35,817 bases of DNA, from assembly GCA_903880675.1 (NCBI GenBank), contig CAIRQL010000226.1, forward strand, positions 1 through 35,817, written 5' to 3'. The position numbers were made by a program, and so were the translations under genes. This stretch comes from an uncultured Holophagaceae bacterium (GTDB lineage: Bacteria; Acidobacteriota; Holophagae; Holophagales; Holophagaceae). Positions 2 through 28,974 of this stretch are shown here, one piece after another (the stretch's first letter is position 1; the number at the start of each line of letters is the position of its first letter). The notes beneath the pieces were generated by a model. The model was not told the DNA's origin. It did no database searches and was given only the letters and a program-made list of their open reading frames with translations.

Positions 2-949
2 GAGGAGGCCCTGGTGGTGGCCGAGCAGATCGGCTATCCCGTCATCGTGAAGGCCAGCTCCGGCGGCGGCGGACGCGGCATGCGCATCTGCAACAACCCG
101 GAAGAGCTGCCCGACCTGTACAACAACGCCCGCAGCGAGGCGAAGGGTGCCTTCGGGGACGACAGCGTCTACATGGAGAAGTACCTCCTGGAGCCGCGCC
201 ATATCGAAGTCCAGATCATGGGCGACCAGCACGGGAATGTGGTGCACCTGGGCGAGCGGGAGTGCTCCATCCAGCGCCGCCACCAGAAGCTCATCGAGGA
301 GAGCCCCAGTGCCGTCCTGGACCCGGCCCTCCGCCAGCGCATCTGCGATACCGCCGTCCGGGCCGCCAAGGCCGTGGGCTACTACAACGCTGGCACCATT
401 GAATTCCTCCTCGACAAGCGCGGTGACTTCTTCTTCATGGAGATGAACACCCGAGTCCAGGTGGAGCACCCCGTGACGGAGCTGGTCACGGGCATCGACA
501 TCGTGAAAGAGCAGCTGCGCATCGCCGCCGGGCAGAAGCTGAGCTTCCGCCAGGAGGATGTGGTCCAGAAGGGCCATGCCATCGAGTGCCGCATCAATGC
601 GGAGGACCCCTTCAAGTTCACCCCCAGCCCCGGCCGCATCACCGCCCTGCACTTCCCCGGCGGCCCTGGCATCCGGGTGGACACGGCCATGCACCAGGAT
701 GCGGTCATCCCGCCCCACTACGACTCCATGGTGGCCAAGCTCATCGCCTATGGCAGTGACCGCGCCGAGGCCATCGCCCGCATGCGCCGCGCCCTGGACA
801 CCCTCGTTATCGAGGGCATCAAGACCACGGCACCCCTGCACCGCCGCATCATGGACCACCCGGACTTCATTGCCGGGACCTTCTCCACCAAGTGGATGGA
901 GACGTTCATGGAAGAGCTCAAGCGGAACCCCGCCGGGGACCCTCGCTAG
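2..949 (+). CDS. accC: Acetyl-CoA carboxylase biotin carboxylase subunit (5' end missing)
   Basis: This is the ATP-grasp biotin carboxylase that carboxylates biotin on BCCP with ATP and bicarbonate, the first half-reaction of acetyl-CoA carboxylase in cytosolic fatty acid synthesis. The frame is already open at the window edge, so the N-terminal pre-ATP-grasp domain lies upstream. Visible are the glycine-rich ATP loop (GGGGRGMR), the [15 protein letters not shown] segment, and [14 protein letters not shown], which carries the catalytic arginine region. The biotin carboxylase C-terminal domain follows ([11 protein letters not shown], then GPGIRVD). The protein ends shortly after that domain with no biotinyl domain, so it is the single-domain AccC type rather than a pyruvate or propionyl-CoA carboxylase fusion. 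tRNA-Thr follows 48 bp after the stop. Confidence 0.95.
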
Positions 950-4054: not shown

Positions 4055-6760
4055 TTACTTCTGCAGCTCGAGGGTGACCACTGCCCCGCCCATCTGGGGC
4101 AGGGTGGCGACGGTCTTCAGCACCTTGCGGGAGACCGAATCCACCCACATGTCGGTGCTCCCAGGATCCCCATCGGCGGAGGTGAGCGTCAGCTTCCAGG
4201 CCTTGAAGCTGCCAGCAGCAACCGTCACGTCCTCTGCAGCCACAACCTTGGCCTGCTTGAGCTGAACCTTCTGGCGCTGGAGGTCCACATTGCGGAAGGT
4301 GACCGTGTAGCCAGCCGCCAGGGGCAGGCAGGCCAGGGCATCCTGGGCCCCGGAGCCATCGGCGTAGGCACCGCCGCCCAGGTCGATGCTGAAGGGCTTG
4401 GGATCCGCGCCCATGGCCATGGAGCCGGTGGCCTTGCTGCCCTCGAAGGCCATCTCGATGGTGACGGGGCCCTGCTTCACCGAGCGCTTGAGGGGCACCA
4501 GGCTTCCTTTGGCCAGGGTGGTGGTGTCCATGGCATCGCCGCCCGGCAGCTTGGTGGCATCGGTGACCACCCAGGTACCAGCCTCTTCCTTGATGGTGCG
4601 GACCATGGAGAGGGGCATGCTCTGGGGCCCCATGGCCAGGGTGCCAGCGTAGGTGAAGGTCCCGGCAGCGGGACTGGCCACGGGCTTGGGCACGCCCACG
4701 GAGCCCGCATCGGCCTTCTTGGCCAGGACCACAGTCTTGGGATCCACCGTGATCTCCGGGAGACGGCTCATCACGTCGGCCTTGCCGCCTTCCTGGAAGC
4801 GGGCCTTGAGGTGCTTGGCCAGGAACTTCTCGGCGGCGGCCATCATGGCCTGGTTGTTCACAGGACGAGCAAACCCGTGGCCTTCGTCCGGGGCACAGAT
4901 GTACTCCACGGGGAAGCCGCGGTCGCGCAGAGCGATGACGATCTGCTCGCTCTCGGCCTTCTTCACTCGGGGGTCGTTGGCGCCCTGCACCACCAGGAGC
5001 GGGGTGTGGATCTTGGCCACGGAGTTCAGCGGGGACTGGCGCTCCAGCTGCTTCTTGCCCTCAGGCGTGTTGGGGTTGCCCATGCGCTCGTGGAAGACGA
5101 TGCGGCCAGCCTCCCAGTAGGGGGGGATGGTCTCGAGGAGGGTCAGCAGGTTGGAGGGTCCGACGATGGACACCGCTGCGGCGTAGACGTCAGGCGTGAA
5201 GGCCACACCCGCAAGCGTGGCGTAGCCGCCGTAGGAGCCGCCCATGATGCCAACCCGCTTGGGATCCACGATGCCCTTGGCCACCAGGTGCTTCACACCC
5301 CAGGTGAGGTCATCCTGCATGCGGTCGCCCCACTGCTTGTTGCCGGCATTGAGGAACTTCTTGCCGTAGCCCGTGGAGCCCCGGAAGTTGGGCGCCAGTA
5401 CCGCATAGCCGCGGTTGGCCAGGAACTGGGCGTAGGGGTTGAAGCCCCACTGGTCCCGGGCCCAGGGGCCGCCGTGGGGGAAGACCACCAGGGGCAGGTT
5501 CTTGGCGGGGATGCCCTTGGGCAGGCTGAGGTAGGCGGGAATTTCCAGGCCATCACTGGACTTGTAGCGGATGGGCTGCATGGCCACCAGGGGCTCCCGG
5601 GGCAGATCCTCACGCGAGACATATTCCAGGGAGAGCTTCTTGGTGCGCCGATCGAAGAGGTAGCGGGTGCCGGGATCGCGGTCGCTGGAGGCAGAGATCA
5701 TGCAGACCTGCTCGTCATCGGTGGTGGAGGCGAGGCTGATCTCCTTGCCCGGCAGCTTCTTCTGGAGCAGCTTATAGTCCGCTTCCCAGGCCTTGTCCTT
5801 CCAGTAGATCCGGGTGCAGTCATCCAGGTAGGTGGTGGCGATGAGCTCGTCTGTGATCTCGGAGAAGATGGCCGAACCGAAGTCCACTCGACCCTGGGGG
5901 TCGGACTCGATCTTGGTCTCCTGCCCAGTGGCGGGGTCGAAGAGCACCAGCTCCACCAGGTCCCGAGCGCCCTTGTTGGTCTCGAGATAGACCCGCTTGC
6001 CGTCCTTGTGGAAGGCCGCAGGGCCTGCGGACTCGAAGACGCCGCACTCGTAGACCTTGGTGAAGCCCTCGGGATCCACCCGGAGGATCTCCGTGTCCCC
6101 CTTTTCCGTGGTGCGAAGGGCCAGGCGCAGGCTGGCCTGCTTATCGAAGACCCAACCGGCAATGCGCTCGGTGTTCTTGCGGAGCAGGGTCCGCTCGCCC
6201 GTGGAGATCTTGACCTTGTAGACGTCGTGCCAGGCTGCATCCCGGTCGTTGAGGCCCACATAGATGGCATCTGGATCCGCCTTGGGGACGGAATAGATCA
6301 TGGCCCTGGCCCCCTTGGCGGCGGTCAGGTTGCGGGCCTCGGCGGCCTCCTTGCCGGGGGCCGGGGTGGCGGCAGGATCCACGGCATAGACGTTGAAGTT
6401 CTCGTCCCCGTCCTTGTCCTGGACAAAGAGGATCTGCTTGCTGTCCCGGCTCCAGAAGAACCCGGGGATGGGCCGCTTGGGATCGGCGGTAATGAGACGA
6501 CCCTTGGTGTAGGGTTCACCGACCTTCTTGACCCAGACGTTGCGGGTCTCCTTCCAGGGCTTCAGGAAGGCAATCCATTTCCCATCAGGAGATAGCTGGG
6601 CACCGGCGATCTCGGGGTTGCCGAAGAACTTTTCGCGGTCGATGAGGGGTGCGGCCTGGGCCTTCCCTGGGGCAGGGGCGGCGGCAGCGGGAAGTGGAAG
6701 GGCTGCAACCAGGGCCAGGCCCGAGCACAGCAGACTGGAAAGATAAAGACGGGCAGACAT
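4055..6760 (-). CDS. Secreted S9 family peptidase (prolyl oligopeptidase / acylaminoacyl peptidase type)
   Basis: This is a 901-residue exported serine peptidase. A signal peptide (residues 1 to about 30, ending in an Ala-Pro-rich stretch) is followed by a beta-propeller (about 40-400, with LSPDGKWIAF-type blades) and an alpha/beta hydrolase domain (about 410-660). The catalytic triad is visible: Ser509 in GGSYGG, Asp596 in GANDPRV, His628 in DEGHGF. Residues from about 680 to the end form an extra beta-rich domain that resembles DUF3108-like folds but is not firmly identified. The ATG at 6760 was preferred over an in-frame codon 27 residues upstream because AGGAGG lies 7 bp before it and it starts the signal peptide. 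It likely degrades peptides in the periplasm. Confidence 0.88.
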   Translation of the reverse strand: MSARLYLSSLLCSGLALVAALPLPAAAAPAPGKAQAAPLIDREKFFGNPEIAGAQLSPDGKWIAFLKPWKETRNVWVKKVGEPYTKGRLITADPKRPIPGFFWSRDSKQILFVQDKDGDENFNVYAVDPAATPAPGKEAAEARNLTAAKGARAMIYSVPKADPDAIYVGLNDRDAAWHDVYKVKISTGERTLLRKNTERIAGWVFDKQASLRLALRTTEKGDTEILRVDPEGFTKVYECGVFESAGPAAFHKDGKRVYLETNKGARDLVELVLFDPATGQETKIESDPQGRVDFGSAIFSEITDELIATTYLDDCTRIYWKDKAWEADYKLLQKKLPGKEISLASTTDDEQVCMISASSDRDPGTRYLFDRRTKKLSLEYVSREDLPREPLVAMQPIRYKSSDGLEIPAYLSLPKGIPAKNLPLVVFPHGGPWARDQWGFNPYAQFLANRGYAVLAPNFRGSTGYGKKFLNAGNKQWGDRMQDDLTWGVKHLVAKGIVDPKRVGIMGGSYGGYATLAGVAFTPDVYAAAVSIVGPSNLLTLLETIPPYWEAGRIVFHERMGNPNTPEGKKQLERQSPLNSVAKIHTPLLVVQGANDPRVKKAESEQIVIALRDRGFPVEYICAPDEGHGFARPVNNQAMMAAAEKFLAKHLKARFQEGGKADVMSRLPEITVDPKTVVLAKKADAGSVGVPKPVASPAAGTFTYAGTLAMGPQSMPLSMVRTIKEEAGTWVVTDATKLPGGDAMDTTTLAKGSLVPLKRSVKQGPVTIEMAFEGSKATGSMAMGADPKPFSIDLGGGAYADGSGAQDALACLPLAAGYTVTFRNVDLQRQKVQLKQAKVVAAEDVTVAAGSFKAWKLTLTSADGDPGSTDMWVDSVSRKVLKTVATLPQMGGAVVTLELQK

Positions 6761-22920: not shown

Positions 22921-22942
22921 TGAGGCGGCGAAGGCCGCCTCA
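22921..22942. terminator. Bidirectional hairpin terminator
   Basis: A perfect 9-bp stem TGAGGCGGC/GCCGCCTCA with a GAAG loop lies between convergent genes. On the plus strand a T-rich TTTCTTTT precedes it. The hairpin includes the stop codon of the CDF gene (22940-22942). Confidence 0.7.
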
Positions 22943-23890
22943 GTGATGTCCACTGCAGTCATGGTGCTCAGACGCTTCCTGATCATGCTGGTGCAGGAAG
23001 CGGTGGTGGTGCCGATCCGCCATGGCCCGGGTCTCGAAGTGCAGGGTGAGGTGGCGGACCCCGTAGCGGGTCGCCAGCAGCTGCTCAATGGCCTGATGAT
23101 GGGCCTCGGTGTCAGCCAGCCGCTCTGCATCCACGATGATGTGGGCGGTGCAGACGCTCAGGTGGCTGCAGACCCGCCAGGAGCGGAGGTCCTCCACCCC
23201 CAGGATGCCCGGCAGGCGGAGCAGCTCCCCCTTGGCCTCCTCCTGGTCGAAGGCGGCCCGGTGCATGAGGATGCCCAGGGCGTCCCGGAGCAGCAGGAAG
23301 GCGCCCCGTAAGATGAGCGCAGCGATCCCCGCCGCCAGCAGGGGGTCCACCCACCGCCACCCCGTGAAGTGGATCACCACCATGCCGGCCATGACCGCCA
23401 CATTGGCCAGGCTGTCCCCCAGGGCATGAAGGTAAGCGCTGCGGAGGTTCAGATCCCGCTCCTGCCCCGTGCCGGCGGCCGGCACCAGCACGTAGGTGGC
23501 GGCCAGATTCAGCAGCAGGCCCAGGGCGGAGAAGCCGATGGCCCAACCGAGGCGGATCGGGTGGGGATGACGCAGGCGGCTCCAGGCCTCCACGAGTACC
23601 GCCCCCGCCAGCACCAGGAGCAGCAGAACCCCCAGAAGCGTGTTGAAGATCTCGATGCGGTGCCACCCGTAGGACCACTGGTCACAAGGCTCTCGGCGGT
23701 TGGCCACCCGGATGCTGCCCAGGGCCAGCAGGTTCACCACCGCATCGTTGAGGTTCTCCAGGCTGTCGGACACCAACCCCAGGGAACCGGTCCACAGTCC
23801 GCCCAGGCCCTGGACAAAGAAGTTCACCGCGAAGATCAGTGAGCTAAGGGCCAGGCGCCCTGTGGTGGTCGGACCATGCCCATGGGCCAT
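22940..23890 (-). CDS. Cation diffusion facilitator family metal exporter
   Basis: This 316-residue, six-helix CDF exporter pumps divalent metal out of the cytosol in exchange for protons. The N-terminus (MAHGHGP) and C-terminal tail (HHHRFLHQH, then HHDCSGHH) are histidine-rich. Helix 5 has the usual H155-x3-D159 (LHALGD). The matching helix 2 site, normally HxxxD in zinc exporters, reads E45-x3-D49 (ENLND). A C-terminal cytoplasmic ferredoxin-like domain follows (about 200-290). The ATG at 23890 was chosen for the typical His-rich start. An upstream in-frame start at 23965 is less likely. The lipoyl-fold gene lies 115 bp upstream in the same direction. Confidence 0.85.
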   Translation of the reverse strand: MAHGHGPTTTGRLALSSLIFAVNFFVQGLGGLWTGSLGLVSDSLENLNDAVVNLLALGSIRVANRREPCDQWSYGWHRIEIFNTLLGVLLLLVLAGAVLVEAWSRLRHPHPIRLGWAIGFSALGLLLNLAATYVLVPAAGTGQERDLNLRSAYLHALGDSLANVAVMAGMVVIHFTGWRWVDPLLAAGIAALILRGAFLLLRDALGILMHRAAFDQEEAKGELLRLPGILGVEDLRSWRVCSHLSVCTAHIIVDAERLADTEAHHQAIEQLLATRYGVRHLTLHFETRAMADRHHHRFLHQHDQEASEHHDCSGHH

Positions 23891-24005
23891 CAGTGCCCCC
23901 TGGAGCGGCCGCCCTGCAGCCTGACCGCCCGCCGGGCACACACCCTCTGCATGGAACCCCCTCACCAGGAATGGTGGTCCCAGTGTAGCCGTTCAGGGTC
24001 CGCCG

Positions 24006-24242
24006 CTAGTTGTCCCGGTCGGAGTCGCCAATCACCACCAGGTCATCGTCCTCGTAGGCGTAGTCCCCTTCCTCAATGAGGACCTCCCGGACCCGTCCGC
24101 ACTCGGGGGCATGGATGTAGAACGACGAGTGGGAGGAATCGGTGCCTTCGAGGATGAGCAGGGGCTCGTCCTCCTCCACCTCCTGGCCAGGACGGACGAG
24201 AACGTCCACCACATAACCCGGCCACTCCGCCCGCACGATCAT
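24006..24242 (-). CDS. Lysine-free biotinyl/lipoyl-fold mini-protein
   Basis: This 78-residue acidic protein matches the single hybrid-motif (biotinyl/lipoyl) fold along its whole length: PGYVVDVLVRPGQEVEEDEP, then LLILE, then APECGRVREVLIEEGD, then LVVIG. In carriers, the hairpin after LLxLE holds the (E)AMKM lysine that is biotinylated or lipoylated. Here residues 32-43 read EGTDSSHSSFYI, and the protein contains no lysine at all, so it cannot be modified in the normal way. It may be a structural or regulatory relative of BCCP or glycine cleavage H protein. GGAGGG lies 4 bp before the ATG, supporting translation. Divergent from ychF. Confidence 0.75.
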   Translation of the reverse strand: MIVRAEWPGYVVDVLVRPGQEVEEDEPLLILEGTDSSHSSFYIHAPECGRVREVLIEEGDYAYEDDDLVVIGDSDRDN

Positions 24243-24371
24243 GCCGCCCTCCGTCCGGCCCCAAGGACCATGGCGGGGAGAGTATGGCGGGAACGGTCCC
24301 TGCGCAAGGGCCAGAAGTGGTTCTTTTTGTAACCCCCGCTCTCTGAGATACTGGATGGCTTGGAGGTCTTG

Positions 24372-25537: not shown

Positions 25538-26794
25538 ATGGCGCAGCCCAAGACAGCACGATGGTCCGGGCGCGGTGCGCCCTTGGAGGACCCTGCCCAG
25601 ATCTGGCTGGCCATGCTGGACCTCCACCGCCAGGAGACGGAGTTCCAGATCAGGGTTGAGGGGGCCCACACCCTCCCCTACAGCGCCCGCATCGAGGCCC
25701 TGGACCGGGAGAAGGGGCTGCTTTTCCTCAAGCTCTTTCGCCCCTTGCCCCATGAGCTGGCTCTGGAGGCTCCCTTTGCCATGCTATTCACCGCGGAGGA
25801 CCAGCGCTTCGAGGCCCCCACCCTCTTCCGGGGTCGGGAGAGCTACCTTCTCTACCGCTTCACCCTGCCAGCCCTGCTGGTGCCCTCGGACCGCCGCCGC
25901 CACAAGCGCTATCCCTTCCGGCCCCGGGAAAAGGCCTATGTGGTCGCCCAGGACGGCACGGTGCCGGGGTACGGCCTCTCCGGCCCCCTGGTGAACCTCT
26001 GCCTGGGCGGACTGGCCTTCCGGGTGGACCGCGTGCTGAGGCTGGATGACCACATGCGCATCACGCCCAACCTGTCCTTCTACGAGCGGGGCAAGGACCT
26101 CCCGGCGCTGGGCATCCGGGACCTGCCTGGCCTGCAGGTCTTCCAGTGCCGGGGGGTCCTGGCCAATGCCATCGAGCGGGACGGGGAGATCATCGTCGGG
26201 GTGCAGTTCGGGGAGCTGAAGGAGTCAGAGCTGAAGGAGCTCCAGGGGGTCCTAAACCTCCGGGACCTCAAGCAGCGGGCGTCGATATCCCTCGGCACGG
26301 AGGCCCCCCGGGAGGCCGCCTCTCGCGAGCCTGCCTCCCGGAAGCAGGAACCAGCCGGACGGATGTCCCCCGCCGGAGCCTTGAATCCCGAGGCTCTCCT
26401 CCGCCTGGGGCGGCGCAGCACCCGGGTGCTGCTGGCCATGGCCCCTGGACCAGACCGGGATGGCATCTGCGCTGCGCTAGGGGAGGCGGGCTACCTCCTG
26501 CTGGAGTGTGCGGACTCCCTGGGCCAGGCTCTGACCGACCTACCCACCGACCACCACGCAGTGATGCCCCTCCTGCTCTTTGAAGCCTCTTCCCTGGAGG
26601 CGCCCCCCGTGGCTGCTCTCAGGGCGCACCGCCAAGCCGTGGGCGACTGGCTGGACCTGCCAGTGGCTCTGATCTGTCCCCGGGGCCAACCCCTGCCACC
26701 GTCCGGGGACCCAGGCCTGCGCCCCCTCCCCTGGCCCGAGACCGGCGAAGCCGAGTGGACCGAGATCCTCGACGACCTGGCGGGGATACTCTAG
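25538..26794 (+). CDS. YcgR-like PilZ domain protein with C-terminal receiver-like region
   Basis: This 418-residue protein has a YcgR-like N-terminal domain at about 15-115. A PilZ domain at about 117-245 contains the arginine motif DRRRHKRY (R120-x3-R124), and the second c-di-GMP motif reads N153-L-C155-L-G-G158, so the usual Ser is Cys. A Pro/Ala/Arg linker (about 250-285) leads to a degenerate response-regulator-like alpha/beta domain at about 292-418 (RVLLAMAPGPDRDGICAALGEAG), which lacks a clear phospho-acceptor Asp. It probably senses c-di-GMP and acts on motility or the envelope. No flagellar genes are nearby. Its stop shares the CTAG at 26791-26794 with the convergent kinase gene. 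Confidence 0.78.
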   Translation: MAQPKTARWSGRGAPLEDPAQIWLAMLDLHRQETEFQIRVEGAHTLPYSARIEALDREKGLLFLKLFRPLPHELALEAPFAMLFTAEDQRFEAPTLFRGRESYLLYRFTLPALLVPSDRRRHKRYPFRPREKAYVVAQDGTVPGYGLSGPLVNLCLGGLAFRVDRVLRLDDHMRITPNLSFYERGKDLPALGIRDLPGLQVFQCRGVLANAIERDGEIIVGVQFGELKESELKELQGVLNLRDLKQRASISLGTEAPREAASREPASRKQEPAGRMSPAGALNPEALLRLGRRSTRVLLAMAPGPDRDGICAALGEAGYLLLECADSLGQALTDLPTDHHAVMPLLLFEASSLEAPPVAALRAHRQAVGDWLDLPVALICPRGQPLPPSGDPGLRPLPWPETGEAEWTEILDDLAGIL

Positions 26795-28932
26795 GAGCCA
26801 GGCAGGGGCGTGACGCGGGCCACCTGACCTTGCCCATCCACCCGCTGGAACCCGTCCTCGATGCGGTTGCCACCTCGGAGGATGGGATCCGCCGCCTCTC
26901 GCGCCAGCAGGATGCCCCCTCGGGCGTTGCGGTGGACCACACACTCCTCCAGGGTCACCTGGGAGTCATCCAACAGCAGCAGGCCCGAGTCCCGGCCATC
27001 CCGGAGGGTGCATCGGACCAGCAGCAGGCTGCCGCCGGATTCGACCTGCACACCCACTCCGGCATTGCCCACGATCTCGCACCCATCCAGGACGCCCTGC
27101 CCCCCGTCGGCGCAGTCAATGCCGAGGGACCGCCCCTCCGCGAAGGTGGTGGCGCGGACCTGGACGGTGGCCCCCCGGTGGATGAGGAGGCCAGAGCCTC
27201 CGTTGGACCGCACCTGGCAGCCCTCCAGGGTGGCCAGGCCCCGATCCATGACCGAGATTCCGAAGCCTTCGTTCCCGCTCACCTGACACTTGCGCAGGAC
27301 CACATTGGCCCCCGCCAGGACATGGGCCCCCGCACACCCATTGCCCGAAAGCTCGCAGGCCTCCAGGGTGGCCTGGCTCTGCTCCAGGGCCAGGAGGCCG
27401 GCATAGTGGCTGTCCACCAAACGGCATTGGGTGAATTGGCCCCGGGACTCTCGACCCAGCTCCACGGCGCCGGCCGCCCCCGACAGGGTGCTGCCCTCCA
27501 GGGTGGCCTGACCCCGGGCTCCCAGACGCAGGCCCGTGCCTGGCCCAGGCCCCACCTGCATAGCCTGGAGGGTCACCTGGCCCCCGGCCTCTACCCGGAT
27601 CCCTGCCTCCTGGAACCCCTCGATGCTGCCCCCCTCCAGGCGGGCCTGGGCCAGAGCGGCCACGGTCAAGCCCCTGAGTCCTGTTGCCAGGATCCTGCAG
27701 TCCCGAAGCGTCAACTGGCCTCCGGCCACCTCCACGCAGGTGCCCGCTCCGGACAGCGTGCACCCCTCCACGATCGGAAAGCCCCGGTCGATGCGAAGGA
27801 CGGAATGACCCGGGGCTCCCCGGAGGGTCACCCCCCGCAGGACGGGGGCACCGGCTGCCAGCACCAGGGTGGGCCCGCCGACCCCTTCCAGGACCACCTC
27901 GCCGGGTTCTCCGACTCCCAGAATTTCCACATCCTTGTCCACCGTGACACTCTCCCGGTAGATCCCGGGCAGCAGGAGGATCTCGGAGCCTGCCCGGGCC
28001 TGGCGGAGGGCCACCTTGAGGCTCAGACAGTGGGCCTGGCCGCCCTTTCCCACCCGGATCTTTTGGGGGACTTCTTCCTCCCGGCGATCGGACCCCGAGG
28101 AAGCATCCTGCCACTCCCGCAGCACGGCCCGGAGGCAGCTGCCCAGGTCCTCCGCGTCCGCCGGCCGATCCTCCGGGCGCTTGCTTAGGGTGCGCAGCAC
28201 CAGAGGAGCCAGGGAGCGGGGAACGCCTTCCAGGTCCGAGGGCCGCAGGGGGTCCGGCGGGTGCAATAGAATGCGATTGAGGATGGAAGCATTGCTCCCC
28301 CCGGGGAAAGGCTTGCGGCCCCCGGTGAGGACCTCGTAGAGGATCACCCCGAGGGCGAAGAGGTCCGAAGCGGCCCCGGCGGTCCCCTGGTCCAGATATT
28401 CGGGTGCCATGTAGCTCACGGTGCCCACCCGGACCCCGGCTTCCGTGAGGCCCGGATCGCCCATCTGGGCCACCCCGAAGTCCATGACCTTGGCGTGGGG
28501 GCGCTTGCCGTGGCGGGTCACCAAAATGTTGGCGGGCTTGATGTCCCGGTGGACCACTCCGTGGTCGTGAGCATAGGCCAGGCCCTCGCAGACCTGCACC
28601 AGCACCCTCAGCAGCTCCTCTTTGGAGGCCTTCCCCCGCTGGATGATGGCCTCCAGGTCCTCACCGTGGACGTACTCCATGGCCAAGTAGTGCAGGCCCT
28701 CATCCTCGCCGAACTCATAGACCGTGACGATGTTGGGATGGTTGAGGAGGGCCACGGCCCGGGCCTCCCGCTCGAAGCGGGTGTGGGCCTCCTCCCCAAA
28801 GTTGGCGCTGGCACTGATGACCTTGAGGGCCACCTCCCGCCCCAGGGAGGGATCGCGCCCCAGGTAGACCTCCCCCATGGAGCCCTTGCCCAGGAGCTTG
28901 CTAACCACGAATTTTCCGAGGCGTTCCCGCAT
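26791..28932 (-). CDS. Ser/Thr protein kinase fused to a right-handed beta-helix
   Basis: This 713-residue protein has a Hanks-type kinase domain at about 7-275 with the full active set: GKGSMGEVY loop, Lys37 (VALK), Asp130 in HRDIKPAN, Asp151 in DFG and APE. After a short polar linker, residues about 295-713 consist of repeated 20-25-residue coils (TLEGCQVRSNGGSGLLIHRG and similar) typical of NosD/pectate-lyase-like parallel beta-helices. No membrane helix separates the two, unlike PASTA-type kinases, so both parts are predicted cytoplasmic. The ATG at 28932 was chosen. A TTG at 28968 would add 12 residues. The gene follows htpX by 42 bp in an apparent operon with the partner-switching genes. 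Confidence 0.88.
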   Translation of the reverse strand: MRERLGKFVVSKLLGKGSMGEVYLGRDPSLGREVALKVISASANFGEEAHTRFEREARAVALLNHPNIVTVYEFGEDEGLHYLAMEYVHGEDLEAIIQRGKASKEELLRVLVQVCEGLAYAHDHGVVHRDIKPANILVTRHGKRPHAKVMDFGVAQMGDPGLTEAGVRVGTVSYMAPEYLDQGTAGAASDLFALGVILYEVLTGGRKPFPGGSNASILNRILLHPPDPLRPSDLEGVPRSLAPLVLRTLSKRPEDRPADAEDLGSCLRAVLREWQDASSGSDRREEEVPQKIRVGKGGQAHCLSLKVALRQARAGSEILLLPGIYRESVTVDKDVEILGVGEPGEVVLEGVGGPTLVLAAGAPVLRGVTLRGAPGHSVLRIDRGFPIVEGCTLSGAGTCVEVAGGQLTLRDCRILATGLRGLTVAALAQARLEGGSIEGFQEAGIRVEAGGQVTLQAMQVGPGPGTGLRLGARGQATLEGSTLSGAAGAVELGRESRGQFTQCRLVDSHYAGLLALEQSQATLEACELSGNGCAGAHVLAGANVVLRKCQVSGNEGFGISVMDRGLATLEGCQVRSNGGSGLLIHRGATVQVRATTFAEGRSLGIDCADGGQGVLDGCEIVGNAGVGVQVESGGSLLLVRCTLRDGRDSGLLLLDDSQVTLEECVVHRNARGGILLAREAADPILRGGNRIEDGFQRVDGQGQVARVTPLPGS

Positions 28933-28974
28933 GGGTAGCCTATCGGCAGGGGAGCCCGCAGCATTCAATCCCGG

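Follow-up and report, generated by a model that had tools for sequence, protein, structure and literature searches.

A lysine is the defining feature of carrier domains. Small stand-alone biotin and lipoyl carriers, such as those of the Bacillus subtilis BLAP/YngHB type (PRK08225 and PRK05889) and the biotin carboxyl carrier protein (BCCP) domain of Pyrococcus, carry this residue in an AMKM-type motif. The barrel-sandwich domains of HlyD and EmrA have the same fold and also lack a prosthetic lysine. Plant BADC proteins, which act with the plastid acetyl-CoA carboxylase, are BCCP-like, lack the biotinylation motif and are separate and non-catalytic (PMC11926652). Their N-terminal region is long, and they are tied to a single enzyme.

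Here we describe P2, a 78-residue protein encoded in a 35,817-nucleotide stretch of DNA (the window) from an uncultured Holophagaceae bacterium. Like the BADC proteins, P2 is a separate protein with a BCCP-like fold and no biotinylation motif, although the likeness is at the level of the fold. Unlike them, P2 is a bare domain of 75–80 amino acids with a hairpin longer by three residues, is bacterial and is not tied to one carboxylase. It is a kind of non-biotinylated BCCP-like protein, which we do not claim as a BADC. Searches of the open literature (subscription papers lay outside them) for a bacterial lysine-free BCCP, and for Geothrix together with biotin, found no such description.

The P2 gene occupies positions 24006–24242 on the minus strand of the window, and its complete translation reads MIVRAEWPGYVVDVLVRPGQEVEEDEPLLILEGTDSSHSSFYIHAPECGRVREVLIEEGDYAYEDDDLVVIGDSDRDN. 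The protein starts with MIVRAEWPGYVV and ends with RDN, has histidines at positions 38 and 44 and a cysteine at position 48, and contains no lysine. A Shine-Dalgarno-like GGAGGG precedes the gene (24247–24252, minus strand), and the SD core (GGAG, GAGG or AGGA) is likewise present ahead of P2 at 43 of 49 homologous loci. The computed isoelectric point is roughly 4.05, with 21 aspartate and glutamate residues. Thus, the strong ribosome site and the acidic character remarked on in a preliminary description of this DNA, which gave no strand for the gene, are both borne out. Downstream on the same strand is a gene for a cation diffusion facilitator (CDF) transporter (22940–23890), identified by matches to TIGR01297 (203 bits) and Cation_efflux and by gene order in relatives, comparison with which placed its start at the methionine of MAHGHG. 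A gene named from its sequence as a YchF-type GTPase is divergent from P2 (24372–25472, plus strand), an arrangement shared by Geothrix-type loci, the other genera that have the carrier operon described below and the loci of 1.2-Mb genomes.

Elsewhere in the window, positions 14–949 (plus strand) encode the C-terminal portion of a biotin carboxylase, truncated where the contig begins, with a Biotin_carb_C match at 584–901; apart from P2, no other biotin-enzyme gene was noticed in the window. At 26791–28968 (minus strand), a protein kinase-like N-terminal region leads into numerous repeats that look like a right-handed beta-helix, which would be an unusual domain pairing.

The Pfam profile Biotin_lipoyl (PF00364) matches residues 9–71 of P2 with 35.1 bits against a cut-off of 22.1, and this match, together with the translation, confirms the initial view of one carrier-type fold devoid of lysine. 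The score against PRK08225 is 30.5 bits, far under the curated cut-offs for PRK08225 and PRK05889 (95 and 75 bits). An AlphaFold2 model, built from an alignment with divergent members and with true carriers that favour a carrier fold in the result, has a pLDDT of 88.6 and a pTM of 0.67; a run on 21 close homologues alone gave a pLDDT of 61 and was left unused. The best VIA-align match to the model is the BCCP of Pyrococcus as solved in complex with biotin ligase (Z of 14.8, rmsd of 0.7 Å over 69 residues), and the top Foldseek matches are BCCPs and pyruvate and propionyl-CoA carboxylases. The small B. subtilis-type and Pyrococcus carriers share the size as well as the fold of P2 (Z of 12.4 for 1z6h and 14.5 for 2d5d). 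As modelled, the fold of P2 is BCCP-like, in agreement with the fold first proposed.

A profile score above the gathering score and the barrel-sandwich fold of the model place P2 in the Biotin_lipoyl superfamily. It lacks, however, the acceptor lysine in an AMKM-type hairpin motif that marks a biotin carboxyl carrier and, judged on the hairpin columns, the lipoyl-accepting lysine that marks a lipoyl domain. The domains of HlyD and EmrA do resemble it (Pfam HlyD_3, 23.1 bits; Z of 12.4 for EmrA and 12.0 for HlyD), but P2 is a single domain of 78 residues without the coiled-coil hairpin insert and the membrane segment or anchor of such adaptors, and it is nearer to BCCPs in both sequence and structure. 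The invariant serine of 4′-phosphopantetheine carriers is missing too, as position 36 varies among S, A, V and Q in the family. P2 does show the BADC-like combination of a BCCP fold, a separate protein and no acceptor lysine, but not the co-occurrence with a BCCP partner: 25 genomes have P2 without a neighbouring carrier. Other BCCPs are still present in most of those that were checked.

Fifty loci were recovered among 84,980 species, and 49 of them encode P2; the remaining one (L080) encodes an ordinary carrier with EAMKVEM. The hairpin codons in the window (residues 32–46, EGTDSSHSSFYIHAP; 24105–24149, minus strand) include none for lysine. Alignment with neighbouring true carriers shows this hairpin to exceed true biotin hairpins by three residues (E-G-T-D-S-S-H-S-S-F-Y-I-H-A-P versus E-S-M-K-M-Q-I-P-V-G-S-P). 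The hairpin pattern is E-G-T-D-x-x-[R/H]-[T/S]-x-F-Y. Column counts over 40 unique sequences, which span Geothrix to Holophaga types, find no variation at E32, D35, F41, Y42 and P46 and very little at G33 and T34; among 21 diverse members, 26 of 78 columns are invariant, including D35, F41 and Y42.

A hairpin lysine is found neither in the 40 unique sequences nor in loci L109–L116. The sole exceptions among the homologues read are L107 and L108, from 1.2-Mb genomes that are probably those of the streamlined genus UBA12189 (PMC11561045). Their hairpin is ENKSMEGIPE[AT]VYAP, in which the lysine (K34, in ENKSMEG) lies outside any AMKM-type motif. The claim that P2 cannot carry biotin or lipoate very probably holds, given that the attachment lysine is absent from the hairpin across the family, and the picture that would have spoken against it, a lysine at this site in homologues and only local decay in the window, is not what the homologues present.

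The total absence of lysine is not striking, because lysine makes up 3.4% of residues in the neighbouring genes and a lysine-free 78-mer would thus arise with a 6.7% chance (p = 0.067) from composition alone. Most relatives have one or two lysines, mainly at positions 50 and 76, and the complete lack is partly lineage-specific, affecting the lineage of the window and a few others. Unremarkable by itself, it is distinct from the conserved absence of the hairpin lysine, which is the meaningful observation.

The residues H38, H44 and C48 were initially seen as a possible hint of metal or redox use, and the window and its closest relatives do carry all three. Of the 40 unique sequences, however, 33 have R and 7 have H at position 38, 34 have N at position 44, and 22 have G at position 48, where the others have C, A or S. 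Comparison of homologues therefore upholds the conserved lysine-free hairpin, apart from K34 in L107 and L108, but not the conservation of these three residues. A metal or redox role is refuted as a function of the family, and P2 is very improbably a protein of this kind.

Alternatively, P2 could be an unusual carrier whose group is attached elsewhere than to a lysine, for instance to D35, S36 or Y42. The invariance of D35 and Y42 would fit this idea, as would the HMMER alignment, which aligns D35 with the biotinyl lysine, and the resemblance of TDS to the phosphopantetheine-type G-x-D-S motif. Yet the variability of S36 rules out phosphopantetheine at this serine, Y42 is replaced by F in the deep members L109 and L113, and we know of no enzyme that modifies aspartate in a carrier fold. 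We consider such a carrier quite improbable.

A profile search at E ≤ 1e-10 across 396 Acidobacteriota genomes gave 39 positives, all of them Holophagaceae, and no match in the other 357 genomes. Within the family, P2 is present in 72 of 77 genomes (E ≤ 1e-16), including all 48 with at least 90% completeness and at most 5% contamination; the five genomes without P2 are 64–83% complete. A looser tally (76 of 77 at E ≤ 1e-5) takes in ordinary carrier matches and was not used. P2 is kept even in Holophagaceae genomes of 0.9–1.2 Mb, and it is a near-universal core gene of the family.

Over 803 pairs, the median dN/dS of P2 is 0.059, and constraint extends to the hairpin (pS of 0.45, pN of 0.07). 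P2 is thus under strong purifying selection throughout the family. These values bear on whether P2 is a biotin carrier gene decaying into a pseudogene, a view for which the lost lysine and the loss of the adjacent true carrier in the lineage of the window might be cited. A dN/dS of 0.06, intact genes in 48 of 48 genomes that are at least 90% complete, and the conserved SD refute this explanation, which is almost certainly wrong. Because the attachment lysine is missing family-wide under such selection, the fold must now serve a different purpose, in line with the original suggestion of a real gene with a repurposed fold.

In five genera (the Geothrix-type g1 and four others, g17, g18, g19 and g22, where g18 stands on loci L071 and L112 and g22 on L113), P2 heads an operon that continues with a 70-amino acid biotin carrier, an enoyl-CoA hydratase (ECH_1, 226 bits) and the CDF gene. 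The 70-residue protein carries ESMKMQ and, at 80.6 bits against PRK08225, scores as a biotin carrier. Two loci read from 1.2-Mb genomes have the same four genes in a tight operon with spacing of 2–36 bp. The window and its two closest relatives lack both the carrier gene and the hydratase gene, and in the window the junction where comparison with relatives would place them (23891–24005, minus strand) holds no recognizable remnant of either gene. In L047, L066 and L069, the carrier has shrunk to a remnant of roughly 35 codons without a biotin site (about 6275–6390; MATLRAEMAGKVLEACRAEG...), next to an intact P2 and a retained hydratase gene. These remnants look like decay caught in progress. 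In some Geothrix genomes, the stretch separating the carrier from the hydratase holds a further, incomplete copy of the 3′ half of the carrier gene (L051:6018-6668, with second matches in G008, G207, G025, G033 and G010).

Other lineages arrange the locus differently. In L110, L111 and L115, a dihydroorotase gene (pyrC) follows P2 after 28–42 bp and pnp is divergent upstream, and P2 also adjoins pnp and dihydroorotase in L079. In L076, L078 and L114, P2 sits between infB and dihydroorotase, and in L072 and L075 it is followed by CDF and then dihydroorotase. pyrC is close to P2 in L079 and L114, and a pyrF-like gene is near it in L109. The co-occurrence with CDF that the preliminary description proposed to examine recurs in two arrangements (Geothrix-type loci; L072 and L075) but is absent in L073, L074, L076 and L079. 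The recurring adjacency suggests an association between CDF and P2.

These placements could mean that P2 has no relation to biotin enzymes and is a fold-only adaptor, one that serves the process of its neighbours (metal export by CDF or pyrimidine synthesis) or some other core process of the family, and the fact that P2 outlives the biotin carrier agrees with such a role. However, P2 is closest to BCCPs in fold and sequence, its neighbours differ between lineages, and the family has no conserved histidine or cysteine metal ligands. We regard an adaptor of this type as unlikely, while giving it real weight.

The 70-residue carrier is found in 46 of 77 Holophagaceae genomes, and so is a specific carboxyltransferase (at least 76% identity to L117:9335-10855, which is mmdA-like at 425 bits, under the cut-off of 998.8 for that family). 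Since the two occur together in 44 of the 48 genomes that have either one, and the exceptions (two each way) are all incomplete at 58–87%, they very probably constitute one enzyme. P2 might then be a dedicated structural subunit of this split acyl-CoA carboxylase, bridging a separate biotin carboxylase and carboxyltransferase. The tight operon with the carrier in the five genera and the co-occurrence of carrier and carboxyltransferase favour this view, but P2 is kept in 25 of 29 genomes with neither (the other four are 64–83% complete), and the carrier remnants of L047, L066 and L069 lie beside intact P2 genes. The carrier and its carboxyltransferase have been lost together in many lineages, including that of the window, and P2 stays. 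It is therefore no dedicated subunit of the split carboxylase, an improbable role that the census largely refutes.

Four genomes without the split enzyme (G022, G030, G035 and G143) have in its place a cluster that encodes a BC-BCCP fusion subunit together with a different carboxyltransferase. In genome G347, no carrier was found as a separate protein. The other Biotin_lipoyl domains found there are confined to a single-chain carboxylase of 1,893 amino acids and a frame of roughly 1,188 amino acids with a biotin carboxylase domain. This single-chain carboxylase (L125:3841-9516; 1,892–1,893 residues with BC, BCCP and CT) matches the ACC_central domain of eukaryotic acetyl-CoA carboxylase at 89 bits, and similar open frames of around 1,800–1,900 amino acids occur in G046, G048 and G050. 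A biotin carboxylase domain is present in 16 of 16 genomes checked, but most bacteria have biotin carboxylase, so its presence is not discriminating.

The neighbouring carrier, encoded by the adjacent gene, has 35% identity to P2 and shares RAE...EDE/EDQ motifs with it, which suggests that P2 may have originated by duplication of this carrier. The carrier differs from P2 in having ESMKMQ and in being lost in lineages that keep P2. In a maximum-likelihood tree of carrier domains, however, P2 is monophyletic (97.2/97) and the neighbouring carrier is not its sister.

We hold with high confidence that P2 is a stand-alone pseudo-carrier with a BCCP fold that can be neither biotinylated nor lipoylated. 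The fuller reading, given somewhat less than an even chance, is that this pseudo-carrier acts by protein binding, docking where BCCP docks, on biotin carboxylase or biotin protein ligase. A docked P2 would serve as a non-catalytic assembly or regulatory subunit, as plant BADC does for acetyl-CoA carboxylase. We rate docking on the carboxylase or ligase as the likeliest form, since these two are the proteins with which the fold naturally pairs, P2 is linked to a carrier in five genera and BADC offers a precedent. We hold back from a stronger statement because P2 outlasts loss of the carrier and its binding partner is inferred. Several lineages, moreover, place P2 next to pyrC rather than any biotin gene, which counts against docking. 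As P2 persists without the carrier and carboxyltransferase and in G347, any target would have to be broader than the BC-BCCP complex. More tentatively, P2 may be a bacterial pseudo-BCCP that evolved independently of plant BADC, belongs to the core genes of Holophagaceae and, by filling the site where BCCP docks on biotin carboxylase or biotin protein ligase, adjusts biotin-dependent carboxylation.

Members of the P2 family are misnamed when automatic annotation labels them, for example, ‘acetyl-CoA carboxylase biotin carboxyl carrier protein’. P2 would offer a small, cheap system in which to learn how non-catalytic carrier domains control biotin enzymes. P2 would be a bacterial parallel to plant BADC: a core gene of the family that is kept in genomes of around 1 Mb and past the decay of the adjacent carrier.
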